A DNA stretch of 64,000 bases. Source: Candidatus Cloacimonadota bacterium (GTDB lineage Bacteria; Cloacimonadota; Cloacimonadia; Cloacimonadales; Cloacimonadaceae). Below are positions 19,548 to 35,188 of this stretch, one piece after another (positions within the stretch are counted from its first letter, which is position 1; each line of letters begins with the position of its first letter). The DNA is taken from the NCBI GenBank assembly GCA_029781115.1, contig JAKOXG010000002.1, positions 1 to 64,000 of the forward strand. Reading direction: 5' to 3'. The notes below the pieces were generated by a model that was given only the letters and a program-made list of their open reading frames with translations, was not told the origin of the DNA and did no database searches. Position numbers and translations under genes: made by a program.

Positions 19548-21737
19548 TTATTTCTTCTTTTCTTTCTTGGCCTTTTTCTCATTTTTGGCTTCTTCATCTT
19601 TTTTCAGTTCTTTCACCTTTGGGAGCTCATTCTCCTTTTGAGGCTCATTTGCTTTCTGCAGTTCGGGCTCCTGCCGCAGTTCTGGTGCTTCTTCCGCTTC
19701 CGGCGCTTGCTCAAAGCCCTCTATCTCCAGTTCGACGTTGCCTTCCAGGGTGTCGATCATAAACTGGGCAGAGTCATTGAGTTCGCCACTGGGATATTTG
19801 ACCAGGAATGCCTTGAAGAGGTCTAAGGCCAAATCTGTATTCTGCATCTCTTCGGCGATCAGGAATGCTTTCATAAAGCTTGCTTTATAGTCGTCTGAGC
19901 CGTTGGGATAGTGTTCGATGATTTGGTTGTAATAGTTGATTGCATCTTTAAATCTGCGCATTCTGGCGCTGTCATCGGCGAGGTTGAAGAGCTCTTCCAC
20001 GCTCAGTTTCAGCTTGATCCTGTCGAGGTGTTTTTGCAGGTTGTATTCTTCAAAGAGTTCGTTTGTGACCTGGGTCTGTTGGCTGCTTTCTTTTTCCTTT
20101 TTGAGTATGCCAAAGATGCGGGGTTCCATCTCGGTGAAGCTTTTCACTTCGGGTGGGTTTTCTTTGGTGGTGCGGAAGAAGACGATATCGCCACGGGCGG
20201 TGGTAAATACGGGGCTGAGGTATCCCACGGGGTTTTCCCAGATCATTTTGGAAAATTCTTCATCGGGGCCGATGCCGGTGACGATGCCGTTGTTGTATTG
20301 GTGGTCAAAGATGCTTTGGTTTGGGTTTTTGGAATCTTTGTCGATAATCTTTTGCATCCGCTTTTCGTCGCCCAGCTTGTGCACGCGGCTAAACTTCTTT
20401 CTGGCGGATTTGGCTTTTTTCATGTTTTCTGCCCAAAATACCTGGATGCATCTGGAGGCGGGGGTGGTGTAATCAGCGATGTGGCTGTCATAGTATGCCC
20501 GGATCTCTTCTTGAGGCACTTCGATGGTGTCCACGATCAGCTTTCTATAGACGGCATTGAGGATGAAATAGTGTTTCATCTGGATGAATTCTTCTTTTTC
20601 TTCCACATATTGCCCGTAGTTTTCCTCGATCGCATCATGGAGCATCAAAGCGCGGCTCAGCTCTTGGTCTATCACCGCTCTCGCACCTTCTCCCTTGATG
20701 TAGAAGATCTGCTCCTGGGGGGTGAGCTTGTTGAAGGAATCCAATATCTGTCCCACGGTGAAGCTGATCTCAGCTTGCGGTGCTTCGATGACAAATTGCT
20801 CGCGGATAGCATCGTTGTTTTCCATGGTTGCCAGGTCTATCTGGGCGGCCAATTCTTCGTTGACGGTTACGCTATATTTGACCACCAGCTCCTCTCTCAG
20901 AGCTTCCATCTTCATTCTTTCCATGGTGGGGCGCAGGCGTTGCTCGATCTCTGGCAAGACTTCTTCATAGCTCTTGTCGCGTCTGGGGATGTGTTCGGTA
21001 ACCATAAAGAGGTGCCATCCCGTTTCGGTTTTCACCGGGCCGACGATCTGGTTCAGATTGTCCAGATTTGCTTCGATGAGCTGCTCGAGTTCTCTATCCG
21101 TGCCGACACCGGGGATGTTGCCATTGAGGCGGATATTTTTGATCACGCCCTTGAGGCCTTTGATGTAGTTGTTTCTGCTAAAGGCGTTTGATACTTCTTC
21201 CCAGCTGACGTCGGTACGCAGCTCGGCCAGGGCGGCCTTGGCTTCGTCTTCCGTGGCAGTGCTGATGTAGTTGATCGTGATCACGGGCAACATCACAAAG
21301 AGCTCTGTGTTTTCGGTGAAGAAGTCTTGTCTGTCAGCCTCGGTGATCTCTACTTTGTCTACCACCATCCTTTTGTAATACTCTTGGATGTAAAACTGGC
21401 GTGTGCCTGTCTCGATGCGCTCCTTTACCTCAGGATCGTTCTCGATATCCATTTCAATTGCTTTTTTGAGCAATACGTTTTCCAGGGACAATACGTCCAA
21501 AACCTGGATCTGTCCTTCAATGGTGCGGAAGCGTCCCTGCTGGTTTGGCGGGATTTTGGAGATGCGGTTATCCAAGTCTTTGCGGGTGATGGTGCCACCC
21601 TCATATTCTACGAGGACGGTGTCGTCGTCCATTTGGTTTTGATTGCTAACGGTCACTTCTGCTTTTTCGGCAGCAAATAAGGCTAAGCTTAGGCTGAGTA
21701 GAAGCAGAATAATCGGTAAGGCGGAATATCGCTTCAT
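19548..21737 (-). CDS. Periplasmic peptidyl-prolyl isomerase (parvulin/SurA-like) with C-terminal TPR region
   Basis: 729 aa from the ATG at 21737, which follows AAGGAG; an upstream in-frame ATG at 21776 would place that ribosome site inside the gene. A signal peptide comes first (MKRYSALPIILLLLSLSLALFA). Next come a SurA/PpiC-like chaperone region and a parvulin domain (~150-285, 'VGPVKTETGWHLFMVTEHIPRRDKS'). A second parvulin-like segment follows (~440-560, 'VGYLSPVFTTARGDIVFFRTT'), then TPR-like repeats ('DAINYYNQIIEHYPNGSDDYKASF') and a Glu/Lys-rich low-complexity tail. It probably helps fold exported proteins, of which this window encodes many. It is transcribed divergently from the pilus locus. 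Confidence 0.85.
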   Translation of the reverse strand: MKRYSALPIILLLLSLSLALFAAEKAEVTVSNQNQMDDDTVLVEYEGGTITRKDLDNRISKIPPNQQGRFRTIEGQIQVLDVLSLENVLLKKAIEMDIENDPEVKERIETGTRQFYIQEYYKRMVVDKVEITEADRQDFFTENTELFVMLPVITINYISTATEDEAKAALAELRTDVSWEEVSNAFSRNNYIKGLKGVIKNIRLNGNIPGVGTDRELEQLIEANLDNLNQIVGPVKTETGWHLFMVTEHIPRRDKSYEEVLPEIEQRLRPTMERMKMEALREELVVKYSVTVNEELAAQIDLATMENNDAIREQFVIEAPQAEISFTVGQILDSFNKLTPQEQIFYIKGEGARAVIDQELSRALMLHDAIEENYGQYVEEKEEFIQMKHYFILNAVYRKLIVDTIEVPQEEIRAYYDSHIADYTTPASRCIQVFWAENMKKAKSARKKFSRVHKLGDEKRMQKIIDKDSKNPNQSIFDHQYNNGIVTGIGPDEEFSKMIWENPVGYLSPVFTTARGDIVFFRTTKENPPEVKSFTEMEPRIFGILKKEKESSQQTQVTNELFEEYNLQKHLDRIKLKLSVEELFNLADDSARMRRFKDAINYYNQIIEHYPNGSDDYKASFMKAFLIAEEMQNTDLALDLFKAFLVKYPSGELNDSAQFMIDTLEGNVELEIEGFEQAPEAEEAPELRQEPELQKANEPQKENELPKVKELKKDEEAKNEKKAKKEKKK

Positions 21738-21848
21738 AATTGAGTTTACTCCTTGCTTGAGTCTGTTGATAATCATAAAGCCAAAAAAAATGGTGGACAG
21801 GAAACCGTCAAGTATTTTATTGTTCCCATAACGTGGCGAACACTTTTT

Positions 21849-21919: not shown

Positions 21920-22357
21920 ATGCTGAGTAAACTCAAGAACCAAAAGGGTTTCACCCTTATCGAAATCTTGGTGGTTGTGATTATCGTAGCCATCTTGGCG
22001 GCCTTGGCCGTGCCTCGTTATCTAAGGTATGTGGAAAAATCACGTTCCACCGAAGCCCAAACAGCAATTAGCACACTACGTAAAGTCTATGACGTTCAAT
22101 TGCAGACAACCGGAACCACTGAAGGTTTCACCAAAGAACAAGCTTTGAAAGAAGCTCGCTTGGGCGAAGCCACAGTCCGCAACTGGCAATTTGAAGTCAC
22201 CGGCAACCCCCCAACCAAATATATTGCCACCTCCACTGCTGATTTCCCCGGCGGCGAAGGCAAGCAAGTTTGGTATGATGTAAAAGAAGCCAAATTCCAT
22301 GGTTATGGTATTGATACTTGGACAAACCCGGAATCCGGAGGGACCGAAACCGACTGA
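21920..22357 (+). CDS. Major type IV prepilin / pseudopilin (PilA/GspG-like)
   Basis: 145 aa. The short leader MLSKLKNQKG ends in the prepilin-peptidase site G|FTLIEI, with the conserved Glu at +5 and a ~20-residue hydrophobic helix ('LVVVIIVAILAALAVPRYL'). The small globular domain resembles GspG-type pilins and has no cysteine pair. It has the strongest ribosome site of the locus (AGGAGGAAA) and comes first after the promoter, consistent with it being the most abundant subunit. It is processed and assembled at the inner membrane by the machinery encoded downstream. The prepilin peptidase (PilD) is not in this window. Confidence 0.93.
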   Translation: MLSKLKNQKGFTLIEILVVVIIVAILAALAVPRYLRYVEKSRSTEAQTAISTLRKVYDVQLQTTGTTEGFTKEQALKEARLGEATVRNWQFEVTGNPPTKYIATSTADFPGGEGKQVWYDVKEAKFHGYGIDTWTNPESGGTETD

Positions 22358-22372
22358 TCTGGAGGATTTAAG

Positions 22373-23428
22373 TTGACTATCCACGAACTACTACGGTTCA
22401 CAGCCGAAGCAGGAGCCTCGGACCTTCACGTGGCCGCCGGAGCTCACCCGATGGTGAGAGTCAACGGCCAGATGAAGAAGCTGAATCTACCCGTCCAAAC
22501 ACTGGAAGATGTGGAAAGCCTCGTTTATGGAGTGATGAACGAAAGTCAGCAGGTGCTTTTTAAGAAGAACCTTGAGATCGACTTTTCCACCAAGCTCTCA
22601 AACGATGTCCGCTTCCGTGTGAACGCTTTTCATCAGATCAACGGCATATCAGCAGCTTTCCGCGTGATCCCGAACGAGATCAAGCCCTATGAAGAGCTGC
22701 ACTTGCCCGAGGTGATCAAAAAACTAACGCAAAAGGAAAAGGGATTGATCTTGGTGACAGGTCCCACCGGTAGCGGTAAATCCACCACACTGGCAACTAT
22801 GATTGATACCATCAATGACACACGTTTTTGCCATGTGATCACGGTGGAAGACCCCATCGAATTTGTGCATCGCAGCAAAAACTCATTGATCAACCAAAGA
22901 GAGCTGGGGCATGACACCTGGAGCTTTACCGCCGCACTCAGAAGTGCCCTGCGCGAAGACCCCGACGTGATCCTCGTTGGTGAAATGCGTGACCTTGAGA
23001 CGGTATCTTTGGCACTGACGGCTGCAGAGACCGGGCACCTTGTGTTTGCTACTTTGCATACCGGAAGCTGCACAAAGTCGATTGACCGCGTGATTGACAT
23101 GTTTCCCAAAGAACAGCAACAACAAGTTCGTTCCATGCTGTCTGAATCTTTGGAAGCGGTGATTTCACAGACGCTTATCCAAACCAAGGACGGCAAAGGA
23201 CGTGTGCCTGCAGTGGAGATCATGATCGCCAACGCCGCGGTGCGAAATCTGATCCGTGAGGAAAAGACATATCAGATTCCTTCCGTGATCCAATCCAGCA
23301 CCAAAGAAGGCATGCAGACGCGTGATCAATCTCTCTACAACCTTGTAATGAACAACCTAATCGAGCGCACAGTAGCTGAAGAATTGGCAGACAATCCCAA
23401 GCTCTTTGCTACCGGCGCAGGATTTTAA
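22373..23428 (+). CDS. pilT: Type IV pilus retraction ATPase PilT
   Basis: 351 aa, TTG start at 22373 preceded by GGAGG. A hexameric cytoplasmic ATPase that depolymerises the pilus for twitching and DNA uptake. An N-terminal PAS-like domain 'GASDLHVAAGAHPMVRVNG' precedes the RecA-like domain with Walker A 'GPTGSGKST', the Asp box 'ITVEDPIEF', Walker B 'DPDVILVGEMRDLET' and the His box 'AAETGHLVFATLHT'. The hallmark 'AxxLRxALRxDPD' is present as 'AALRSALREDPD'. It sits 15 bases after the prepilin. Confidence 0.95.
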   Translation: MTIHELLRFTAEAGASDLHVAAGAHPMVRVNGQMKKLNLPVQTLEDVESLVYGVMNESQQVLFKKNLEIDFSTKLSNDVRFRVNAFHQINGISAAFRVIPNEIKPYEELHLPEVIKKLTQKEKGLILVTGPTGSGKSTTLATMIDTINDTRFCHVITVEDPIEFVHRSKNSLINQRELGHDTWSFTAALRSALREDPDVILVGEMRDLETVSLALTAAETGHLVFATLHTGSCTKSIDRVIDMFPKEQQQQVRSMLSESLEAVISQTLIQTKDGKGRVPAVEIMIANAAVRNLIREEKTYQIPSVIQSSTKEGMQTRDQSLYNLVMNNLIERTVAEELADNPKLFATGAGF

Positions 23429-23430
23429 TT

Positions 23431-23907
23431 ATGAAGCTTCCGATCATGGGCGAAAATCCAAACTCAGATAATGAGAGCAAAGCAAACCCCATGACCATAC
23501 TTCGCCAAGCCAGGGGCTTCACTCTGATTGAAGCCCTGGTTTTGGTGTTGGTCATTGTTGTTCTCGTTACCAGCCTTTACATAGGCATCATCTATGCCGA
23601 GAAAACCCTGGCTACAAACTACCGAGACAGGGTGGTTACACTCCTCTTGGTAGGCCAACTGGAGCTGGAATACTACCGCAAGGAAAATGGCCAGCCCTTC
23701 CAATTGCAAAACAATAGAGAATATGTAATCCAAGAACTGGACAAAGGCAGACCTATCACCGGAAAGATGACGATTACAGCTCGGGTTGGAAATGATGTAT
23801 CAAACGACAGGTCCCTTCAATTCACGGCCCTGACAGCTACGATGACTTGGAAAGACCCCTCCACCAAACAAGTTAGAACCCTGAGTATGCGTGAGGATTT
23901 CTTCTAA
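23431..23907 (+). CDS. Minor type IV prepilin
   Basis: 158 aa. The cleavage site 'QARG|FTLIEA' is followed by a hydrophobic helix ('LVLVLVIVVLVTSLYIGIIY'). Two starts are possible: 23431 (35-residue leader before the cleavage Gly's partner residue) or the in-frame ATG at 23491, which would give a short leader MTILRQARG more typical of the family. Neither has a strong ribosome site. It is probably a minor pilin of the PilV/FimT kind that primes assembly at the tip. It lies directly after pilT and is joined end to end with the next prepilin gene. Confidence 0.8.
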   Translation: MKLPIMGENPNSDNESKANPMTILRQARGFTLIEALVLVLVIVVLVTSLYIGIIYAEKTLATNYRDRVVTLLLVGQLELEYYRKENGQPFQLQNNREYVIQELDKGRPITGKMTITARVGNDVSNDRSLQFTALTATMTWKDPSTKQVRTLSMREDFF

Positions 23908-24573
23908 ATGAGACGCAGACACCTTAAGACACCAAATATAATATCAAACCAACGAGGCGTCAGCCTGATAGAGCTGATCGTGGTGATGGGTATCATCGTG
24001 ATCATGTCGATGATATCGGGCGGTGGTGTGGCTCTTTTCTTTAGAAAATATGATGAACTGAGAAAATATGCCGAACTGCAAAATGACGCCATTGAGCTGC
24101 TGAACTATATCAAGTTTGGCATCCCCGTGGGCGATGAAGGTGCAGCCCTCACTCAGACCGGCCTTGGCGACTACCAATTTCACAAGCCAAAAGAGTATTA
24201 TGGAGTCAACAACGCCCTTACCATCCAATTTTTGAATGCTCCCTATGGAGCCAGACAATCAAACTCCATCAGAGTGATTCCCATACTCGTACAAGATCAT
24301 GGGCTCACACCCTCTGATTATGCAGATTTTTATTACCATAATGGTACTGTGCGTTGCAGAAGGAGCTATCAAGGCTCAGGGTCTTCGACAGTCCTGACCC
24401 TATTTCCCAAAACCGGGACAAGGGATTACATCTCCCTGGATGAAATATCGTTCAAACAGTTGAACAACGGAAGCAACATCTCAGTGCTTGATGTGACCCT
24501 CAGGGCCAAGGTCGAAGTTGGACCCAAAAGATATAAACGTTTAATGTATCGCACCCAAATGGTGAAGAAGTAA
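23908..24573 (+). CDS. Minor type IV prepilin (PilW-like)
   Basis: 221 aa. The ATG immediately follows the previous stop (TAA ATG), suggesting coupled translation. The leader ends 'NQRG|VSLIELIVVMGIIVIMSMI' with Glu at +5. The large globular part (~180 aa) with 'FYYHNGTVRCRR' fits PilW/PilJ-type minor pilins. Its last ~100 bases (from about 24475) are the left edge of the 2.1-kb tandem duplication; a diverged copy of this 3' end is found at about 26591-26682. Confidence 0.8.
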   Translation: MRRRHLKTPNIISNQRGVSLIELIVVMGIIVIMSMISGGGVALFFRKYDELRKYAELQNDAIELLNYIKFGIPVGDEGAALTQTGLGDYQFHKPKEYYGVNNALTIQFLNAPYGARQSNSIRVIPILVQDHGLTPSDYADFYYHNGTVRCRRSYQGSGSSTVLTLFPKTGTRDYISLDEISFKQLNNGSNISVLDVTLRAKVEVGPKRYKRLMYRTQMVKK

Positions 24574-24606
24574 CATGGCACCTTTTATGTTGTTGAGGAG
24601 TGTATC

Positions 24607-26508
24607 ATGAAAGCAATTTTAAGAAACCCAAGCGGTAACGTTAGCGTCGCCATGCTCTTGGTGGTGATAGCCACGATGTCCGGCTTTACCTTGGCTGGGC
24701 TTGCCTATAGGGACATCATGAGTTTTCACTATGAGTATGAAAACGTTCAATCCCTGTTGCTGCTGAGGAGCGAAGCCCTGAGAGGCCAAGCCCTTATGGG
24801 TGCCTTGGGTATGATTACTATGCCCGTAGTCACCAGCGAGCGAACTGTGGAAGTTTCGGGAACCCAGGCAAGCAAGAGCTTCAAGATCAAATCCCTGATC
24901 GTTCCCGGTGGTTCAGCACTTGTGGATGAAAATATAACGCAGGGCGATTCCAGACAAATTACCAACGTTCATAGCCGCGTGTATGTACACAGGGGCACCA
25001 AGTATGCGTCTGCCGGCAATCCCAGATCCGTAGTGCAAAAGTATGGTGTCTATACCTTGGAATATGAGACCTTTGCCAAGTTTATGTATTTTACGGATTT
25101 TGATAAAGACCCAAACGGTTACCCGATTCGCCACTATGGCCCTGACATATTCTACGGCAGAGTGCATAGCAATGAGGATATCTGGATACGCCAGGCCGGT
25201 GGTGGAAACAACGCTGGTTGGCCCACCTTCAATGGCTGGGTTACTACGGCCGGAATTGTGAGAGTGTATCCCGGTGGTGGGCATGATTTCCCCGAAGATA
25301 CTATCTTCAAGGGCGGCCTCACCGAAAACTATGCCTATACAAACTTCCCCGACGAAGCTATCACTTTGAGAAATAAGGCAAATACACTGGGGCCTACCAT
25401 TTACGATAAAAAATACATCGTCTACTTCAATGCCAGTGGTGGCAGTGCAGACGTGCTTTTGGGTAATGTCGGTCTCGGTATGATGGAAAGTTTGGCGGTT
25501 TATCCGCCCAATCTCTATCCTCCGGGAACGGTGGAACCCCTATATGCAAACTATTACAGGGTACCGGATACTACTTGGACCAGACTTAACGCCGGTGGTC
25601 TTTCAGGAAAATCATTCTACTCTTATAACAAACTGTGGATCAAGGGTCATTTTACCGGTTACCAGACCTATGGAAGCCGAGATACCATCTTTATACTGGG
25701 GGATATCCTGCTTACAGGAACACCCAGGGGGCTGAACCCGGAAGGCAACAAACGAGATGTGGTGGGCTTGGTGGCTGAAAAATCCATTGTGGTCAAGTAT
25801 GGCTATCGCGATCCTGTTGATACCTTGCGCCACCATGATACCAGTGGTTCTACCACAAGCGATCCCTTGGGCGGAGTATGGATCTATGCTGCCATGGCCG
25901 CTTTGGGTGATGGCCAAGGTGATCCCAGAAAAGACGGCGTATTTACATTTGAATATCAACACCCACATCCATCAGTACCCGATGTGAGAATGAATAATAT
26001 CATTTATACCAAGGTAGACCTGCATCGCAGACGCTTCCCTCAGCAAAACAATACCGGTTGGAGCCAAGCTGACTCCAGGATAGACTACCCTTGGTACAAT
26101 CCACTTTGGCCTGAAAGAGCACCTTATCTGGAGCGTGGATATATAAACGTCCATGGCTCCATCTCGCAACGCAGACGTGGATTTGTGCATCGCAACTATC
26201 TTGACAGCGATCATCCTAATAATGCCGGAGTTTGGGATCAGCCCCAAGATCTGTGTGGGAGAAGCAGTGCTCCCGCTGCGGTGCGCCATTCAGACCCTGT
26301 CGTGCCGGGCCTTATACTCGAGACGAGAAACTATCCGGGAGCCTCCGGAAGCGGTATCGGCTACCAAAAGAACTATCACTACGACAATCGCTTTTACTAC
26401 ACCTCACCCCTGCACTTTCCAGAAGTAACACGTGAAGAATCCAAAACCTTCACCGGGGTGAAATGGGAAGTCAAAAACCCGAGCTCAATGCCACATCCTA
26501 TCAGGTAA
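24607..26508 (+). CDS. Pilus-operon protein of unknown function, copy 1 (PilX-like N-terminus)
   Basis: 633 aa. The N-terminus 'NPSGNVSVAMLLVVIATMSGFTLAGL' resembles a class of minor pilins: a Gly before the hydrophobic helix but Ala instead of Glu at +5, so PilX-like anchoring is possible. The rest is rich in Tyr, Gly and Pro ('WPTFNGWVTTAGIVRVYPGGG', 'YEYQHPHPSVPDV'-like segments) with a beta-structured look and no catalytic motif I recognise. Its place between minor prepilins and pilM suggests a pilus-tip or assembly component, perhaps in the role of PilX/PilY1. ATG at 24607 after GAGGAG. It is closely similar over its whole length to the gene at 26714. Confidence 0.85.
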   Translation: MKAILRNPSGNVSVAMLLVVIATMSGFTLAGLAYRDIMSFHYEYENVQSLLLLRSEALRGQALMGALGMITMPVVTSERTVEVSGTQASKSFKIKSLIVPGGSALVDENITQGDSRQITNVHSRVYVHRGTKYASAGNPRSVVQKYGVYTLEYETFAKFMYFTDFDKDPNGYPIRHYGPDIFYGRVHSNEDIWIRQAGGGNNAGWPTFNGWVTTAGIVRVYPGGGHDFPEDTIFKGGLTENYAYTNFPDEAITLRNKANTLGPTIYDKKYIVYFNASGGSADVLLGNVGLGMMESLAVYPPNLYPPGTVEPLYANYYRVPDTTWTRLNAGGLSGKSFYSYNKLWIKGHFTGYQTYGSRDTIFILGDILLTGTPRGLNPEGNKRDVVGLVAEKSIVVKYGYRDPVDTLRHHDTSGSTTSDPLGGVWIYAAMAALGDGQGDPRKDGVFTFEYQHPHPSVPDVRMNNIIYTKVDLHRRRFPQQNNTGWSQADSRIDYPWYNPLWPERAPYLERGYINVHGSISQRRRGFVHRNYLDSDHPNNAGVWDQPQDLCGRSSAPAAVRHSDPVVPGLILETRNYPGASGSGIGYQKNYHYDNRFYYTSPLHFPEVTREESKTFTGVKWEVKNPSSMPHPIR

Positions 26509-26532
26509 CAGAGTCCATATACAAGAGTAACC

Positions 26533-26682
26533 ATGAAGAAACACAAATCGCTCAAGTTCAAGGAATCGGTTGGAACTGATCTTGGCAGAGACATTACAGT
26601 GCTTGATATGACCCTCATGGCCAAGGTTAGGCCCAGACGATATGAACGCTCAATGTATCGCACCCCGGTGGTGAAGGAATAA
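26533..26682 (+). pseudogene. 49-codon chimera of pilM start and PilW-like gene end at the duplication junction
   Basis: The frame opens MKKHKSLKFKESVGTDLG, matching the first 18 codons of pilM (28640) with two changes. After GGCAG (26588) it switches to 'TVLDMTLMAKV..YERSMYRTPVVKE', the diverged C-terminus of the PilW-like protein at 24573. The fusion is in frame from ATG to TAA. It is best read as a leftover of the tandem duplication; a translated product is possible because a start and stop survive, but no function is implied. Confidence 0.85.
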
Positions 26683-26713
26683 CAACATCTTTTATGTTGT
26701 TGAGGAGAATCTC

Positions 26714-28615
26714 ATGAAAGCAATTGTAAGGAAGCCAATAGGTAATGTGAGCGTCACCATGCTCTTGGTGTTGATAGCCACTATGTCTGGTTTTACTTTG
26801 GCCGGACTTGCCTATAGGGATGTTCTATGTTTTCACTATGAGTATGAAAACGTTCAATCCCTATTGATGCTGAGGAGCGAAGCCCTGAGAGGCCAAGCCA
26901 TTATGGGCGCTATAGGTGTAATCACCATGCCCGTGGTTACCAGTGAGCGCACCGTGGAAGTTTCCGGAACTCAGGCAAGCAAGAGCTTCAAGATCAAATC
27001 CCTGATCGTTCCCGGTGGCTCAGCACTTGTGGATGAGAATATAACGCAGGGCGACAGAAGGCAGATCACCAACGTCCATAGCCGCGTGTATGTGCATAAG
27101 GGCACCAAGTATGCACCTGCCGGCAAAACCAGGTCTATCGTGCAAAAGTATGGCGTCTATACCCTGGAATATGAGACCTTTGCCAAATTCATGTATTTTA
27201 CGGATTTTGATAAAGACCCAAACGGTCACCCGATTCGCCACTATGGCCCGGACGTATTCTACGGCAGAGTGCACAGCAACGAGGATATTTGGATACTCAA
27301 AGGTAGTGGTGGAAACAACTCCGGTTGGCCCACCTTCAATGGCTGGGTTACTACTGCGGGAACGGTGAGAGTATATCCCGGTGGTGGGCAAGATTATCCC
27401 GAAGATACTATCTTCAAGGGCGGGCTCACCGAAAACTATGCCTATACTAATTTCCCTGATGAGGCTAATACCTTGAAGAACAGTGCTCAAAAGGTGGGGC
27501 CTCCCATGCAAGATCAAAAATACATCGTCTACCTGAAAGTTAATGGTACCAGTGCAGACGCACTCTTGGGCACAGTTGGTGATGGCACTTTGGAAAGTTT
27601 GGCGGTCTACCCACCCCACCTCTATCCCCCGGGAACAGGGGAACCCCTATATGCAAACTATTACAGAGTACCGGATACTACCTGGACCATGCTGAGCCCG
27701 GGTGCCCTTTCCAATAAGTCATTTTATTCCATGAATAAACTCTGGATTAAAGGTAATTTTACAGGTTACCAGACCTACGGAAGTGAAGATACCATCTTCA
27801 TATTGGGGGATATCCTGCTTACCGGTACACCCAGAGGGCAGGAACCAGAAGGCAACAAACGAGATGTGGTGGGCTTGGTGGCCAAAAAATCCATCGTAAT
27901 CAAGTATGGTTATTATGATCCTATCGATACCGAACGCCACCATGATACCAGTGGTGCCAGCACCAGCCAACCCTGGGGAGGAGTGTGGATCTATGCTGCC
28001 ATGGCCGCTTTGGGCGACGGTAAAGGTGATGCCAGAAAAGACGGTGTGTTTACCTTTGAGTATCAACACCCACACCCATCCGTGCCCGATGTGGTAATGA
28101 ATGATATCATTTACACCAAGATAGACCTGCACCGCAGACACTTCCCTCAGCAAACAAACACCGGTTGGAGCCAGGCTGATCCCAGGATAGATTACCCTTG
28201 GTACAATCCGCTTTGGCCTGAAAGCCAACCTTATCTGGAGCGGGGATATATAAACGTCTATGGCTCCATCTCGCAACGCAGACGTGGATTTGTGCATCGC
28301 AACTATACAGACCGTGACCACCCAAACAATTCAGGCATTTGGGATCAGCCCCAGGATCTATGCGGATATAGTAGTGCTCCCTTTGCTGTGCGTCATTTTG
28401 ATCCAGTCGTGCCGAACCTTTTACTCGTGACGAAAGACTACGAGGGATCTTCCGGAGGAGGTATCGGCTACAAGAAAAACTATCACTACGACAATCGCTT
28501 TTACTACACCTCGCCCCTGCACTTCCCAGAGGTGACGCGTGAAGCATCCCAAACCTTTACCGGCGTGAAATGGGAAGTCAAAAACCCGAATTTAATACCA
28601 AGTGCTATACAATAA
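26714..28615 (+). CDS. Pilus-operon protein of unknown function, copy 2
   Basis: 633 aa, the same length as the copy at 24607 and alignable end to end without obvious gaps. Long identical blocks include 'TSERTVEVSGTQASKSFKI' and 'DTIFILGDILLTGTPRG'; differences cluster in the middle (around residues 255-300) and near the C-terminus. The hydrophobic N-terminal helix is kept (VSVTMLLVLIATMSGFTLAGL). Both copies remain open, which argues that both are under selection. ATG after GAGGAG at 26701. It is followed by pilM. Confidence 0.85.
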   Translation: MKAIVRKPIGNVSVTMLLVLIATMSGFTLAGLAYRDVLCFHYEYENVQSLLMLRSEALRGQAIMGAIGVITMPVVTSERTVEVSGTQASKSFKIKSLIVPGGSALVDENITQGDRRQITNVHSRVYVHKGTKYAPAGKTRSIVQKYGVYTLEYETFAKFMYFTDFDKDPNGHPIRHYGPDVFYGRVHSNEDIWILKGSGGNNSGWPTFNGWVTTAGTVRVYPGGGQDYPEDTIFKGGLTENYAYTNFPDEANTLKNSAQKVGPPMQDQKYIVYLKVNGTSADALLGTVGDGTLESLAVYPPHLYPPGTGEPLYANYYRVPDTTWTMLSPGALSNKSFYSMNKLWIKGNFTGYQTYGSEDTIFILGDILLTGTPRGQEPEGNKRDVVGLVAKKSIVIKYGYYDPIDTERHHDTSGASTSQPWGGVWIYAAMAALGDGKGDARKDGVFTFEYQHPHPSVPDVVMNDIIYTKIDLHRRHFPQQTNTGWSQADPRIDYPWYNPLWPESQPYLERGYINVYGSISQRRRGFVHRNYTDRDHPNNSGIWDQPQDLCGYSSAPFAVRHFDPVVPNLLLVTKDYEGSSGGGIGYKKNYHYDNRFYYTSPLHFPEVTREASQTFTGVKWEVKNPNLIPSAIQ

Positions 28616-28639
28616 TAAGGTCCATACATAAGAGGAACT

Positions 28640-29710
28640 ATGAAGAAACAAAAATCGCTCAAGTTCAAGGAATCGGTTGGAATTGATCTTGGCAGCCACA
28701 GCGTTAAAGTCGTGCATCTTAAACGACTGAACGAAGGCTTTAAGCTGCTCAATTATGAAATCCGACCCACAGTTGCCCACGGAGTGGAATACATTCCGGG
28801 CGACCTGCGTCCTGAACGCTACGGCCCCGTGCTGGTGGACATCCTCAAGACCCTGCGTATCAACCCCAAAAGAGTCCAACACCTGGTCACTTCTGTGGGA
28901 GGAGACAACACCAGCATCAAACAAATCAAAACCATCTTTCTTCCAGACGACGAGCTGGAATCAGCCCTCTTCTTTGAAGCCAAGAAACACATTGCCATCT
29001 CTGGATCAGATATGGTGTTGGATTATCAGGTGCTCAGCGTTGAAGAGAAGACAAACAACATGAACATCCTCTTGGGTGCCACCTCCAAAGAGCTGATCAA
29101 CGAACACACCAACATCTTGCAGACTGCCGGTCTGGCACCAAACTTGGTGGATATCGACTCTCTGGCTGTGGCCAATAGCTTTATGCTCAATGCCTTTGTC
29201 GAAGAAGGTGTTTATGTGTTATTGAACCTGGGAGCTCATCGCACCAATATGGTGATTTGGGGCCCCGATGCAAGATTCTTTTCCCGTGATATCCCCTTTG
29301 GTGGCTACAACTTCACCAAAGACATCATGCGCAAACGCTCAATGGAATGGGAACAGGCAGAGAATTACAAGCTGGAATTTGGCCTGCTGGACGATCCCAG
29401 CAACCCCGAAGTTCGCACTCTGAGCATGCTGGATATCACCGAGAAGCCCACCGAAGAGGCTATCGTCGAAGAGATACGTCGCTCGCTGCGCTTCTACGTC
29501 AAAGAAGCTGGCAACAGCGATTTTCGCAAAGTCTATCTGATGGGTGGAACCGCAAAGTTGAAAGGCTTACCTGAGTATATCGAGGAGAAAGTCAACCTTC
29601 CCACCGAGATATTCTTGCCCTTCATCAATGTGGAGATGCCCGAAAAGTTTATCGATAAAAAAGACCCTCAATTGGCTCTGGCAGTTGGCCTGGCCATGCG
29701 GGCGGAATAG
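28640..29710 (+). CDS. pilM: Type IV pilus assembly protein PilM
   Basis: 356 aa, actin/FtsA-like ATPase fold of the cytoplasmic face of the alignment complex. Nucleotide-binding segments: 'VGIDLGSHSVKVVHL' near the N-terminus, 'VDIDSLAVANSF', 'VLLNLGAHRTNMVIW', 'PFGGYNFTKDI' and 'VYLMGGTAKLKGLPEYI'. It binds the N-terminal tail of PilN. RBS AGAGGA lies before the ATG at 28640. Its first 56 bases are duplicated at 26533. It is first of the pilMNOPQ run. Confidence 0.95.
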   Translation: MKKQKSLKFKESVGIDLGSHSVKVVHLKRLNEGFKLLNYEIRPTVAHGVEYIPGDLRPERYGPVLVDILKTLRINPKRVQHLVTSVGGDNTSIKQIKTIFLPDDELESALFFEAKKHIAISGSDMVLDYQVLSVEEKTNNMNILLGATSKELINEHTNILQTAGLAPNLVDIDSLAVANSFMLNAFVEEGVYVLLNLGAHRTNMVIWGPDARFFSRDIPFGGYNFTKDIMRKRSMEWEQAENYKLEFGLLDDPSNPEVRTLSMLDITEKPTEEAIVEEIRRSLRFYVKEAGNSDFRKVYLMGGTAKLKGLPEYIEEKVNLPTEIFLPFINVEMPEKFIDKKDPQLALAVGLAMRAE

Positions 29711-29719
29711 GAAGATGGT

Positions 29720-30319
29720 ATGAATCAATTTTACTTCAAAATCAATCTAAACAAATACGGCGATCTGAAGCTGCAAGCAGAACGTGAAAACAAGATGTTT
29801 ATCCAGGCAGTCGTCGTGTTTGCCATTGGAATTGTAATCCTTTTGGCCGCCCACTTTTATATCAGTTCACAGCTGAACAAAAAGGTAGCCAACAGGCAGA
29901 AGTTCCTGAAAGAGACACAAGCTCAGATTGATCAGTTTAAAACCAGTGGAGAATACCTTTCCAGCCAAGACTTGGATCGTCTGGGAAAGACCTTCAATGA
30001 TCGTATCTTCTGGGCAAACAAGCTGGTGGCACTCTCTCAGGAAATTGACCACAAGTTAGCAGTGCGCAAATTTACCTTTGCCAACGGTGTGCTCACGCTC
30101 AATGGGATCACACCTGTAGACAACAATGTGAGGGAGATCGACCTGATCAACGAGTTTATCCTGCGGTTAAAATCCAACCCAGAGATAAGCAACGACTTCC
30201 CCTACATCAAATCTGGTGCCATAAGCAAGCAGGTAGTCAAGGACACCGCAATCATGGAATTTGTGATTGAGTGCTACAGTAAGGAGCCCTCAAGAGTTCC
30301 AGGAGGTGAGATACAATGA
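29720..30319 (+). CDS. pilN: Type IV pilus inner-membrane protein PilN
   Basis: 199 aa. A short N-terminal tail 'MNQFYFKINLNKYGDLKLQ' carries an INLN-like stretch typical of PilM binding. One membrane helix follows (about residues 28-50, 'FIQAVVVFAIGIVILLAAHFYI'), then a coiled coil and a small periplasmic ferredoxin-like domain. It pairs with PilO; the two genes overlap by four bases (ATGA). The assignment rests on topology and position between pilM and pilO as much as on sequence. Confidence 0.85.
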   Translation: MNQFYFKINLNKYGDLKLQAERENKMFIQAVVVFAIGIVILLAAHFYISSQLNKKVANRQKFLKETQAQIDQFKTSGEYLSSQDLDRLGKTFNDRIFWANKLVALSQEIDHKLAVRKFTFANGVLTLNGITPVDNNVREIDLINEFILRLKSNPEISNDFPYIKSGAISKQVVKDTAIMEFVIECYSKEPSRVPGGEIQ

Positions 30320-30864
30320 GGGAAAAATATCTCGTATTCATCGTGCTGATGATCTTGATTGCCGTGCTGATCTTTACTGCCAGTGCCAACAACCTCAACA
30401 GTGGCCTCAAGAAAGTGAAAGACTATGACAACCAGATCAAGACTGCACAGGAAAGGCTGAATAGCGCCCGCATCATGAATGAAAAGCTGTCCCAGTTTTC
30501 ATTGATCATCGACAACAGCTTGTCAAAATCTGGAAAATTCACCTTTGAAGAGATCAACGACTTCAAAAGGCGCATCGGCGAACTGGCCCATGACCGCAAA
30601 ATTTCCATCAACAAGCTCTCGGATACCAACAAGTTCTCATTGCCGGGGCTGATCGAAACCACCTACAACTTGGAACTGGAGGGAACCTTCGTTCAGATGG
30701 GACAATTCCTTTCAGACCTGGAAGCTCTCGACAATATCATTAAAATCCACTTCATAGACGTCACTCCTTCTGCTGAAGGCGATAAAAAGACGGAAGACTA
30801 TGCGGTGTCCAGATACAAAATAATGATTGAACTTTCCATATTCAAAGTGAAGAAGGAGGCGTAA
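30316..30864 (+). CDS. pilO: Type IV pilus inner-membrane protein PilO
   Basis: 182 aa. One N-terminal membrane helix ('YLVFIVLMILIAVLIFTASA'), a coiled coil (~25-80) and a periplasmic domain with 'YNLELEGTFVQMGQFLSDLEALDNIIKI', the characteristic PilO strand-helix pattern. It starts inside the pilN stop (ATGA) and ends one base before the next gene, so translation is probably coupled along pilN-pilO-pilP. Confidence 0.88.
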   Translation: MREKYLVFIVLMILIAVLIFTASANNLNSGLKKVKDYDNQIKTAQERLNSARIMNEKLSQFSLIIDNSLSKSGKFTFEEINDFKRRIGELAHDRKISINKLSDTNKFSLPGLIETTYNLELEGTFVQMGQFLSDLEALDNIIKIHFIDVTPSAEGDKKTEDYAVSRYKIMIELSIFKVKKEA

Positions 30865-31410
30865 ATGCAACTGAGATATCTAAAAGACCTGGCCGTCACT
30901 TTGATCGTGATCATCTTCCTGGTATTGGGAGTTCGTCTCTATACAAATTACTACAAGATGAAAAATGTCCCAGAGCATTCCATTCACTCCAAGGAATCCG
31001 TATCGGATGCGCTGCTCACGGATATCAAGGCGATTGAAAGCTCCATCCAGGACCGTAAGGAGTTTGTCTTTACTATCACCCGTGACCCATTGCGTCAGGG
31101 CAATATCATCAAAGACAAATTGGATCTGGAGCGTGAGTTCCTCGAGAGTGTGAGAAACACCTTCAGGCTTTCCTCCACCTCTGTGCTGGAGAATGGAAAG
31201 AAATATGCAACCATTGAATATCGTGATCAAAACTACTATGCCACAATCGGTGAAACCGTGGAAGGCCGTAGGATCGTTGATATTGGTGAAAACTGGATCA
31301 AGTATTATTACGGTGGCAACACGGTGACCGCCTACCTGGCACCCAGACCACCCATGCCAGATTTTGACGCCATGAACGTCAAGAATACTGACAACACTGG
31401 AAATTGGTAA
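30865..31410 (+). CDS. PilP-like pilus assembly protein
   Basis: 181 aa, immediately after pilO. An N-terminal membrane segment ('LAVTLIVIIFLVLGVRLY') with no lipobox cysteine, then a coil containing 'RDPLRQGNII', close to the PilP/GspC-type 'RDPF' motif, and a short beta domain ('GKKYATIEYRDQNYYATIGETVEGRRIVDIGENWIKYYYGG' split by turns) like the secretin-binding HR domain. It probably bridges PilNO to the secretin. It differs from classical PilP in being membrane-anchored instead of a lipoprotein, which makes a GspC-like reading possible too. Confidence 0.7.
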   Translation: MQLRYLKDLAVTLIVIIFLVLGVRLYTNYYKMKNVPEHSIHSKESVSDALLTDIKAIESSIQDRKEFVFTITRDPLRQGNIIKDKLDLEREFLESVRNTFRLSSTSVLENGKKYATIEYRDQNYYATIGETVEGRRIVDIGENWIKYYYGGNTVTAYLAPRPPMPDFDAMNVKNTDNTGNW

Positions 31411-31442
31411 ATAAATATAATGTAAATAATGGGAGAACCTAA

Positions 31443-32867
31443 ATGACACTTAGCCCAAACTCAAAATCATTTTTGCGGATCATCCTCCTGTTGGCCATGG
31501 CATGGCTGGCTGTTGGGCTGATGGCGCAATCCAGCAAACTTACTACCAAAGTTAGCTACAATGCCGATGATGCAACGCTGTCTTCGGTATTGAACGCCTT
31601 GTCACGCCAAAGTGGCTGCAACATTGTGCTGGCTGCCGATCCCCGCGCAGCCGCCGATAAGGAAGAACGTAGAGTGACCCTGAATATCAAGGATGTGCCT
31701 ATCGAGACAGCAGTATCCTTGGTGGCCAGAGTTGCTGGGCTTGCCTACAAAGTAGAGGGTGAAAACACCTTCATCGTAGGTACCAAGCAAAACATTTCTG
31801 AAGAATCCGGAGAACGCAGCAAGATCATCTATCTCAAGAACCTTGATGCTGAAAAAGTGGCCAAATCCTTGGAAAACACCGCCGGCAAGGTGGTGCCTCT
31901 GGAAGGCCAAAACGCAGTGATGGTCTATGCAAATCCCGAAACATTCAAGAATATCGAAGATTTGGTCACCAGCATCGACGTGGATCAAAAGCAGATTGAG
32001 ATCAGAGTGCGCCTCATCGAAGTGCATCTCAACCATGCAAGAAAGATGGGCATCGACTGGAGCCGCCTCAACCACCTCACCACAATCTTGGCTGAAGACC
32101 CTGTAAATGCCAGAGGCACAGGACTTCCCTTCAACTACACAGATGTTGAGGGATACCTGCCGCACGGCGACCCCATGGACTTTGAACAGCTCCCAAGAGA
32201 GCAACACTTCCAACGCATCAATGGATTGAAAGACATCGGCCACTTCAGCCGTCAACTCACCGCTTTTGACATCACGGTAGATTGGCTCTTGGAAAACAAC
32301 GCTGCTCAGCTGCTCACAGACACACGCGTTACTACCATAAACGGCTCAGAAGCTACAATCCACATGGGAGAAGTGGTGCCCTTTGTGGTGACAGACAACG
32401 ACAAGCAAGTTCAGGTCGAGCGCGAAGAAGTCGGTATCATCCTCACCGTCACACCCACCGTAAATTCCGACGGTATGATCACCGCGGCAATCGCTCCCGA
32501 AGTAAGCTCTGTGACTGACCTCGTGGGTGGCTATGTTCCCCGCACAAAAGTGCGTAAAGTGACCTCTACCGTCACAGTTCCCAACGAACAAAAAATCGTT
32601 ATTGGTGGTCTGCTCAACAGCAGCATCAGTAAGAAAACCAATAAAGTTCCTTTCCTTGGTGACCTGCCTTTCGTCGGCAAGCTTTTCCAACACCATTATG
32701 AAGTGGTGGAAAATACTGACCTCATCATGGAGATCACCCCCCGCTTGGTATCGGTCTTTGAGGCAGCTCCCGAAATCAAAGTGGATGAGAGACTCACACG
32801 TCAGTTGATCGAATATGAAGAGGAAGAAGTAGAAGGTGAGGAAGTCGGGGAAGAAGGGGGAGAATAA
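31443..32867 (+). CDS. pilQ: Type IV pilus secretin PilQ
   Basis: 474 aa. Signal peptide (to about residue 28, 'AVGLMAQSS'), then a STN/N0 domain ('LKVPIETA'-like, 'NIKDVPIETAVSLVARVAGL'), an N1-type repeat ('NAVMVYANPETFKNIEDLVTSIDV') and the secretin barrel ('KVTSTVTVPNEQKIVIGGLL', 'VPFLGDLPFVGKLFQ', 'LIMEITPRLV'). It ends with a Glu-rich tail. It forms the outer-membrane pore for the pilus and implies a diderm envelope. Short for a PilQ: no AMIN domains. Its TAA overlaps the ATG of the next gene (TAATG). Confidence 0.93.
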   Translation: MTLSPNSKSFLRIILLLAMAWLAVGLMAQSSKLTTKVSYNADDATLSSVLNALSRQSGCNIVLAADPRAAADKEERRVTLNIKDVPIETAVSLVARVAGLAYKVEGENTFIVGTKQNISEESGERSKIIYLKNLDAEKVAKSLENTAGKVVPLEGQNAVMVYANPETFKNIEDLVTSIDVDQKQIEIRVRLIEVHLNHARKMGIDWSRLNHLTTILAEDPVNARGTGLPFNYTDVEGYLPHGDPMDFEQLPREQHFQRINGLKDIGHFSRQLTAFDITVDWLLENNAAQLLTDTRVTTINGSEATIHMGEVVPFVVTDNDKQVQVEREEVGIILTVTPTVNSDGMITAAIAPEVSSVTDLVGGYVPRTKVRKVTSTVTVPNEQKIVIGGLLNSSISKKTNKVPFLGDLPFVGKLFQHHYEVVENTDLIMEITPRLVSVFEAAPEIKVDERLTRQLIEYEEEEVEGEEVGEEGGE

Positions 32868-35188
32868 TGAGATATATCTACAGACCCTTAATGCTCTCTG
32901 TCATGGTGTTGATGCTCGTGATTTTGGCCACATCTTGCGATAGGCGCAATATCCCCGTGGTCTTGGATCAGGAGCCGGTACCTGTCTCATCAGAGCGTTA
33001 TATCACCTCGATAGTAGCTACACCGGATACCATCTATGCCGACAACAACATCACCTATTCCCACATCAAGGTGCAGGTGAAAGACGGTGAAGGCTTTGGC
33101 GTTCCAAGCCAGATAGTGAGCTTTAAGACCGACCTCGGCAGGGTGCTCACCAACGTGCCTACAGATAGCACAGGTGTGGCCACCACTACCTTCTGGGATG
33201 ATGGAGACGAAGGCCAAGCCACAATCACCGCAGTGGTACGCAAGTATTCTGAAGAAGACGAAACCGTCGTAATCTCAGAAGCTGTCGAAACCATCAATGT
33301 GCAAATCTTGCCGGTTCCCGCCATTGAATCAATTACTCTCAAGGCGCCCAGTTTCTCAAAGGTGACCCAAACCCATTCTATCACTGCTACAGTGAAAAAC
33401 GAGCTGGGTCAAAGTGTGCCCAATAACACACTGGTAACCTTTGATTGCATCATGGGTTCGTTCTGGACGGATGCAGGTGGAGGTGAAGCTGGTGCAGAAT
33501 TGGGCAACTCAACCGTCGTAAAAACTATCAACGGCATTGCCAAGGTTACCTACAAGGCCTCCAACCTCATCACGGATGACGAGAACGTCGAAACCATCAC
33601 TGCCTCGATCGGAGCAGTGCGCAAGAGCCAAAATGTGACTATCACTGCAGGCGATCCTGCCGCTCTGACATTGCAGACATTTGTGATCGACAATGGTGTT
33701 CCCAATGAGACGGATACCAGTGCCTTGGAATCTGACGATGAGATCCGCCTCTCTGCGAAGCTTACAGATATTCACGGCAACGTCTGCAGCGGCAAAAGGG
33801 TCAAGTTTGGCACCAACCTCGGCACCTTTATCAATACCCAACAGCAGATCAACATAAACACGCAGGCTGACGGCTATGCGCATACCCGCCTGATCCCCGG
33901 CTTATTGGCTGGTGCTGCCACCATCACGGCTTCCGCCAATGGAGACACTCTCCAAGCTGAAACCGTATTCACCATCACTTCCAGCATGATCTACTCCATC
34001 GGATTTACCCAGGAAAGTTCCATTAAACTGTGGGTAGCCAACACAGGTGGAGAATCATCAGCCATCCTGAGAGTAAAGCTCAGAGACATCAATGGCAACT
34101 TGGTTGATACCCAGCAACCGGTATGGTTTGAGATGGTGGGCGCTGTCCCGGCAGGAGCAAACCTGAACAACCAACCTCCCAACGCACCAGTGATGGTGAT
34201 GAGTACAGGAGGTGAAGCCCAGATATCGGTCAACGCCGGAACTGAATCCGGAGTTCTGGCCATCAAAGCTTCACACACAAGAGAATCAGATAACGTGGAA
34301 ATCTTTGCTATCAAGACCAATATCATCATCCAAGGTGGTCCTGCTGCATCCATTACTCCTTTCATTGGTCGCCAGAATTCAGGACAGGATATGGGTGGTG
34401 GAGTGTGGCGCGTTGTGGCAGGGGCAAGTGTATTTGACATCTATGGAAACCCCGTGATAGATGGAACCACGGTTCACTTTGAACTGATCAACAATATGAC
34501 CAACTGTACCATCGATGCTGCTGGTTTGGTGGGCAACGTGAGCGTGGATGACGACTCTCTCGCCGGAACTGCCTACACCGTTATCACCTATTCCGGCATC
34601 TACACCAACGAAATGATCACTGTCAAAGCCTCCACAGGTTCTGCAGGGAACCCCAATGGTATCTTCGGTGTTGCCAACCTCAAATTGCCACTCAATGAGC
34701 CTCATCTGGAGATCATACCCAACCCCTTGCATATCAACTTTGGTCTGGAGGGTCCCCCAGTATGGAAGTATGTAAGTGTCTATTGCACCGTCACTGACGG
34801 GCAAGGCCAAAAGATAGGCAAACAGCCCATACACATTACAACCACATTGGGAAACGTCGTGCTTATAGGATCTTCACAACCAAACCTGACACCAGAACTT
34901 GATGAATCGATCTATGCTCCGCCGGTCAACGATCCGATTTATCCGTGGATTATCAACACGGTGAGCATGTTCAATCCCGGTCCTGATGCCAATCCAAACC
35001 TGATCGACTATCACGGTATGGCCAAGAGCAGGGTCAAGTATCACAGAGATATGTGCCCTCCACCTGACCAGCCAGGTGTCGCCGGAGAAAACTCCGGTAA
35101 CATTATCGCCACCTTGCTTGGATATGACGTCAGTGCGACTACGACTATCGGATTAAGACGTTACTGGTATGATCCAGTACCATTCTAA
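32867..35188 (+). CDS. Ig-like (invasin/Big_1-type) lipoprotein translationally linked to pilQ
   Basis: 773 aa. The signal peptide ends in a lipobox 'LATSC' (Cys about residue 24) followed by Asp. The rest is a chain of about five bacterial Ig-like domains of the invasin/intimin type, with recurring patterns such as 'ITAVVRK', 'DGEGFGVPSQIVSFKT', 'DSTGVATTTF', 'LGQSVPNNTLVTFD', 'DIHGNVCSGKRVKFGTNLGTF' and 'DGYAHTRLIPGLLAGAATITA'. The start overlaps the pilQ stop, so expression is tied to the secretin. It could be a pilotin-like or surface-exposed partner of PilQ or an adhesin shown with the pilus. I do not know a described pilus protein with this architecture. Confidence 0.8.
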   Translation: MRYIYRPLMLSVMVLMLVILATSCDRRNIPVVLDQEPVPVSSERYITSIVATPDTIYADNNITYSHIKVQVKDGEGFGVPSQIVSFKTDLGRVLTNVPTDSTGVATTTFWDDGDEGQATITAVVRKYSEEDETVVISEAVETINVQILPVPAIESITLKAPSFSKVTQTHSITATVKNELGQSVPNNTLVTFDCIMGSFWTDAGGGEAGAELGNSTVVKTINGIAKVTYKASNLITDDENVETITASIGAVRKSQNVTITAGDPAALTLQTFVIDNGVPNETDTSALESDDEIRLSAKLTDIHGNVCSGKRVKFGTNLGTFINTQQQININTQADGYAHTRLIPGLLAGAATITASANGDTLQAETVFTITSSMIYSIGFTQESSIKLWVANTGGESSAILRVKLRDINGNLVDTQQPVWFEMVGAVPAGANLNNQPPNAPVMVMSTGGEAQISVNAGTESGVLAIKASHTRESDNVEIFAIKTNIIIQGGPAASITPFIGRQNSGQDMGGGVWRVVAGASVFDIYGNPVIDGTTVHFELINNMTNCTIDAAGLVGNVSVDDDSLAGTAYTVITYSGIYTNEMITVKASTGSAGNPNGIFGVANLKLPLNEPHLEIIPNPLHINFGLEGPPVWKYVSVYCTVTDGQGQKIGKQPIHITTTLGNVVLIGSSQPNLTPELDESIYAPPVNDPIYPWIINTVSMFNPGPDANPNLIDYHGMAKSRVKYHRDMCPPPDQPGVAGENSGNIIATLLGYDVSATTTIGLRRYWYDPVPF

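Follow-up and report, generated by a model that had tools for sequence, protein, structure and literature searches.

Two diverged copies of a large minor-pilin-like gene in a Cloacimonadota type IV pilus operon

The phylum Cloacimonadota, known from anaerobic digesters, is uncultured. The genome considered here (2.25 Mb, 99% complete) carries a single type IV pilus operon, and between pilW and pilM lie two consecutive genes of equal length, each encoding a 633-aa protein. This arrangement raises two questions: how the second copy arose, and why both have been kept. Our window is a 64,000-nt stretch of one contig, to which coordinates refer unless another locus is named. The duplicated gene is called X, and its copies X1 and X2.

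Anatomy of the duplicated unit

The operon reads pilA, pilT, pilV, pilW, X1, remnant, X2, pilM, pilN, pilO, pilP, pilQ, a gene for an Ig-like protein, and pilB. Its parts are as follows:

21920–22357 (+), pilA-like major pilin, Glu at +5 (N_methyl Pfam E 1.5e-9, one of only three N_methyl matches genome-wide)
22373–23428 (+), pilT-like retraction ATPase (T2SSE Pfam 1.9e-49; conserved synteny)
23431–23907 (+), pilV-like minor pilin, Glu at +5 (N_methyl 1.3e-3 and PilX_N 7e-3, neither reaching the Pfam cut-offs)
23908–24573 (+), pilW-like minor pilin, Glu at +5 (N_methyl 1.6e-5); its last ~105 nt open the duplicated unit
24607–26508 (+), X1, putative 633-aa large minor pilin in the GspK/PilX position; the conserved copy (omega ~0.12)
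26533–26682 (+), remnant at the junction, the head of pilM (26533–~26588) joined to the tail of pilW (~26584–26682)
26714–28615 (+), X2, second 633-aa copy, faster-evolving (omega ~0.28), with its own GAGGAG ribosome-binding site
28640–29710 (+), pilM, intact (PilM_2 Pfam 6.7e-48); its first ~56 nt close the duplicated unit
29720–32867 (+), pilN, pilO and pilP (named from position; synteny) and the pilQ secretin (Secretin Pfam 1.8e-38)

In-register direct repeats start at 24469, with spacings of 2115, 2109 and 2107 bp, and define a unit of ~2.11 kb that runs from the end of pilW (24469–24573) through the X gene to the start of pilM (28640–28695). X1 and X2 align without a gap over their full length. 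The proteins differ at 104 positions (83.6% identity), and the genes are 84.2% identical, with 69, 47 and 185 nucleotide differences at codon positions 1, 2 and 3, respectively. The repeat is far beyond chance, and both the duplication and the retention of the two copies are established. A preliminary description, made from the letters of this DNA, had reported a 2.1-kb tandem duplication from the end of pilW to the start of pilM and an equal-length pair alignable end to end, and it was right on both counts. No third copy was found in a search of the source genome.

Between X1 and X2 lies a 150-bp remnant in which the head of pilM is joined to the tail of pilW at a short imperfect match (GGCAG / GGAAG). 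It offers a comparison of the same age as the X1/X2 pair. Its pilM head shows 2 differences from pilM in the first 54 nt, and its pilW tail shows 20 differences from pilW in 96 nt, plus a 6-nt deletion. Given the 16% divergence of X1 and X2 and the changes in this remnant, the pair cannot be one sequence duplicated by the assembly. X was duplicated inside the single pil operon when the tail of pilW and the head of pilM underwent an unequal (illegitimate) exchange.

The remnant also contains a 49-codon in-frame fused ORF. A functional mini-ORF was considered and rejected as unproven, because the frame would stay open by chance after 22 random substitutions with p 0.16 (~0.05 counting the indel), the Shine-Dalgarno sequence is weakened (GAGG to GAGT), and 12 of the 17 changed codons in the pilW part are nonsynonymous. 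One oddity is that the pilM head of the remnant (26533–26588) is nearly unchanged despite the age of the unit (dS ~0.55 in X). This may partly stem from slow synonymous change of pilM generally, dS to G005 being 0.36 for pilM versus 1.08 for X1.

A scan of the region for promoters and terminators gave matches no more numerous than in shuffles, and hairpins predicted 5' of X are weak and differ between the two copies. Adjoining pilA and divergent from it is a gene for a 742-aa protein (19548–21776, −), labelled PPIase-like by its look and not from a family search; this neighbourhood is kept in the family. The Ig-like protein between pilQ and pilB (773 aa; Big_1, Invasin_D3; 32867–35188, +) is conserved family-wide and is a possible outer-membrane or pilus-associated partner.

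Age of the duplication and selection on the copies

The order pilV-pilW-X-pilM is conserved across the order. All five congeners carry a single X between pilW and pilM, as do the remaining pil loci of the family wherever these are readable. In the wider count of relatives that the preliminary description had called for, one copy is present in 61 of the 65 sampled species whose slot could be read, and the remaining four (the source genome, G054, G069 and G070) have two or three. That description had also named, as an outcome that would tell against it, a descent of single-copy relatives from the duplicated state. The pilW-X and X-pilM spacers of relatives are short and contain no remnant (three congeners inspected base by base), indicating that these relatives did not derive from such a state. 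X1 and X2 are sisters within the genus (support 100/100), and dS between them is 0.55, compared to about 1.0–1.1 to the nearest relatives (NG86). The single copy in relatives, the sisterhood of X1 and X2 and the dS values together show that one copy is ancestral and that the duplication is lineage-specific and fairly old, postdating the split from the nearest sampled relatives.

Horizontal replacement of the putative tip genes was considered as well and rejected. dS versus G005 is ~1.05 in pilW and X and nearly as high in the flanks (PPIase-like gene 0.94, Ig-like gene 0.87), so there is no sharp islet of replacement. In the G001 locus L013, read from pilV to pilP, the genes pilV, pilM and pilO are broken up or out of order, as if this MAG had been wrongly scaffolded.

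Selection was analysed with a purpose-written GY94-type codon model and five taxa. Synonymous branch lengths are equal for X1 (0.76) and X2 (0.74), as expected for tandem twins. Omega is 0.12 for X1, 0.28 for X2 and 0.18 for the background, and unequal values for the two copies are favoured (P = 0.023), although the difference is modest. Omega = 1 is rejected for X1 (2dlnL 36, P ~ 2e-9) and for X2 (2dlnL 22, P ~ 2e-6). Both frames are intact, which tells against degeneration of either copy. These data show that purifying selection maintains both copies, bearing out the selection on both frames that the preliminary description had proposed and had suggested checking by dN/dS.

The two copies have not changed to the same extent. 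Derived residues, polarised by two outgroups, number 9 in X1 versus 27 in X2 (P = 0.004), and polarised third-position changes are balanced (46 and 54, respectively). Those of X2 are enriched in residues 1–67, which comprise the leader and helix (9/60 versus 18/423 polarisable sites elsewhere, P = 0.003); X1 has none in this region. X1 has remained near the ancestral protein, and X2 evolves faster, especially in its leader and N-terminal helix. This asymmetry could reflect relaxed constraint on a redundant copy instead of a new role.

Recombinational variation between the copies, a further suggestion of the preliminary description, did not hold up. We found no exchange of segments between X1 and X2: there is no gene conversion tract (longest shared run at third positions, P = 0.74), the variance of identity among windows is not significant (P = 0.07), and the pairing of X1 with X2 is favoured by the informative sites of every 60-codon block but the last, a three-way tie. 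Concentrated patches of substitution do exist, as described, notably at residues 255–345 (30% different). The residues that differ between X1 and X2 are the most variable sites between species (entropy 2.15 versus 1.42 bits, P = 2e-11), and the patchiness belongs to the whole family; it is not a diversification specific to this pair.

X as a candidate tip pilin

X has a prepilin-like leader whose last residue, a G at −1 (G10) before the hydrophobic helix, is invariant in 68 of 68 homologues. Residue +5 is A, V, T or S in all 68 and Glu in none; PilA, PilV and PilW, the sole N_methyl pilins found in the genome, all have Glu at +5. GspK of type II secretion systems also lacks Glu5. X stands third, after the V(I) and W(J) minor pilins, which is the PilX/GspK position. 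Proteins of the PilX/GspK type cap the tip complex, GspK being the tip subunit of GspI-J-K (PMC7248040). As core minor pilins they share with X the third place after V and W, the lack of Glu5 and a leader ending in G. GspK resembles X further in having an inserted domain that makes it far larger than other pilins. The insertion in X (a protein of about 630 aa) is predicted to be beta-rich, and the searches turned up no solved GspK insert like it; X also differs from GspK and PilX in the tandem duplication of a single gene.

AlphaFold models of both copies (pLDDT 78.5 and 83.5) predict a helix at residues 8–67, four strands up to 153, a beta-rich insertion, and closing strands at ~584–591 and 615–623. 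The X family profile matched no PDB chain at E <= 10 (hmmsearch; GspK and ComZ, 6QVI, included), and Foldseek searches of the X1 and X2 models against the PDB and viral models returned no significant match. The fold assignment consequently rests on topology read from DSSP, and, given the lack of a sequence or fold link to ComZ or GspK, membership is unproven and the analogy stands. A Tapirin C-terminal domain, at rank 2 in the fold search (E 0.7), is only a lead, and a literature search on it found nothing. X matched neither PilX_N nor T2SSK in Pfam, and the PilY1 domain (PF05567) matched neither X1 nor X2; it had zero matches over 50 genomes, control genomes likewise giving zero. DUF4900 (PF16241), a domain of unknown function, weakly matches X1 at residues 134–215 and matches 34 of 44 homologues (best 3.4e-6), with X1 and X2 under the Pfam cut-off.

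From its sequence features, X looks like a capping minor pilin of the GspK/PilX type and is likely to be a tip cap. The pilus-tip protein envisaged in the preliminary description is plausible in this respect, while the location at the tip is something we infer from hallmarks, gene order and predicted topology. Most likely, X would cap a PilV-PilW priming complex at the pilus tip, with its beta-rich domain facing outward.

Relatives also have longer X paralogues of about 930–1000 aa, which share residues ~160–600. The one examined (G001; L063:4008–6788, −) begins with a stretch resembling a signal peptide, ends in a T9SS Por_Secre_tail and lacks the pilin helix; a T9SS-tailed paralogue that shares the X domain supports an extracellular role of that domain. 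Similar ORFs occur in L008, L010, L011 and L062, often in tandem (G082:C43, G098:C138). No such long paralogue was found in a search of the source genome. The T9SS C-terminal sorting domain is matched 96 times in that genome, and the matches in the window lie near 4904, 10878, 44075, 47028, 53003 and 56767.

Recurrence of the duplication and readings of the two copies

Multiple X genes occupy the pilW-pilM slot in three other genomes (three in G054, two in G069, and two in G070, whose contig stops inside the second copy), and each set is monophyletic. The inter-copy spacer of G070 (L100, 1945 to 2101) contains pilM-head sequence (MSKKKKLKFKEVIGLDIDSH...) that continues into a stretch resembling the pilW tail; its duplication is an independent event with the same type of junction. 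Spacers in G054 and G069 are 21 and 34 nt, with no visible remnant, and copies within these sets are 58–71% identical. These data show that at least three other species independently acquired tandem X copies in this slot.

We regard as probable an account in which an exchange-born duplication gave two copies of a tip cap, both under selection, with X2 diverging. Each pilus would then be primed with either X1 or X2, and from this we reason that a cell may form two alternative tip variants. More broadly, the pilW-pilM slot may be a 'tip-variant' site, subject to recurrent cap duplication (at least twice with pilW-tail/pilM-head breakpoints), where two or three alternative caps and a shared PilV/PilW would yield differing tips per cell; this extension is tentative.

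It is somewhat less plausible still that the second copy serves dosage or redundancy, in which case two copies would boost one limiting tip subunit and X2 would drift under relaxed constraint with no distinct role. The higher omega of X2, the spread of its changes across helix, insertion and C-terminus, and the coincidence of divergent patches with the variable sites of the family all fit such drift. Yet the codon model rejects omega = 1 for X2, and the two frames have stayed free of indels at dS ~0.55, whereas the remnant next to them carries an indel and its changes are mostly nonsynonymous. Moreover, diverged copies have been kept repeatedly and independently in the same slot (G054, G069), which is unlike pure dosage, because dosage favours similar copies.

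Under another reading, X is a ComZ-like competence tip pilin and its duplicate broadens or doubles DNA capture. ComZ of Thermus thermophilus binds DNA and is argued to sit at the tip, and its pilin fold carries a large beta-solenoid, inserted after the penultimate strand and before the last one (PMC6561018). Like X, it is a large pilin encoded among minor-pilin genes. The order of helix, strands, beta-rich insertion and closing strands recurs in X as predicted model topology. The source genome also has a ComEC homologue, but ComEC is widespread and non-diagnostic (10 of 14 control genomes). X has neither detectable sequence similarity nor a fold-search match to ComZ, which is single-copy in its published locus, and proteins predicted to be T9SS-sorted, unconnected with competence, carry the beta-rich domain too. 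We consider a DNA receptor unlikely. More doubtful by far is that the tandem copies swap segments and so generate new tip variants. The tandem layout and the arrays of related copies in G061 and G062 would suit such swapping, but it is already disfavoured by the missing conversion tract, the X1+X2 pairing favoured or tied in all blocks, and the even third-position divergence; in addition, the repeats are direct, and neither an invertase nor silent partial cassettes were seen at the locus. The least credible reading is an artefact, in which two strains were joined in the assembly or the second copy is degenerate. Although the tandem is known from one assembly of the species, both frames are intact, a diverged pilM/pilW remnant lies exactly at the junction, and G070 also has two sister copies with a junction of the same kind.

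Paralogous pilus tips are already known, mostly as whole minor-pilin clusters, as are duplicated and diverged minor pilins. Divergent roles of retained duplicates have been shown for PilEVWX1/2 and FimT1-3 in Xylella (PMC9956873) and suggested for minor pilin/PilY1 clusters 1–3 in Myxococcus xanthus (PMC13190605). Duplication in those systems took in several genes or entire clusters; here it concerns only the cap-like gene, inside the core operon, and one PilV/PilW set would serve two caps. What is new is duplication of the presumed cap only, repeatedly and independently, at one operon position. The locus provides a clean natural experiment on the divergence of one cap gene with single PilV/PilW partners, and it draws attention to large tip-like pilins, a family that has received little study.

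X copies also occur away from the pil locus, some in tandem arrays, in G046, G047, G053, G061 and G062. At L083, L084, L087 and L088 (G061, G062), two or three X genes stand in an array outside a pil operon.
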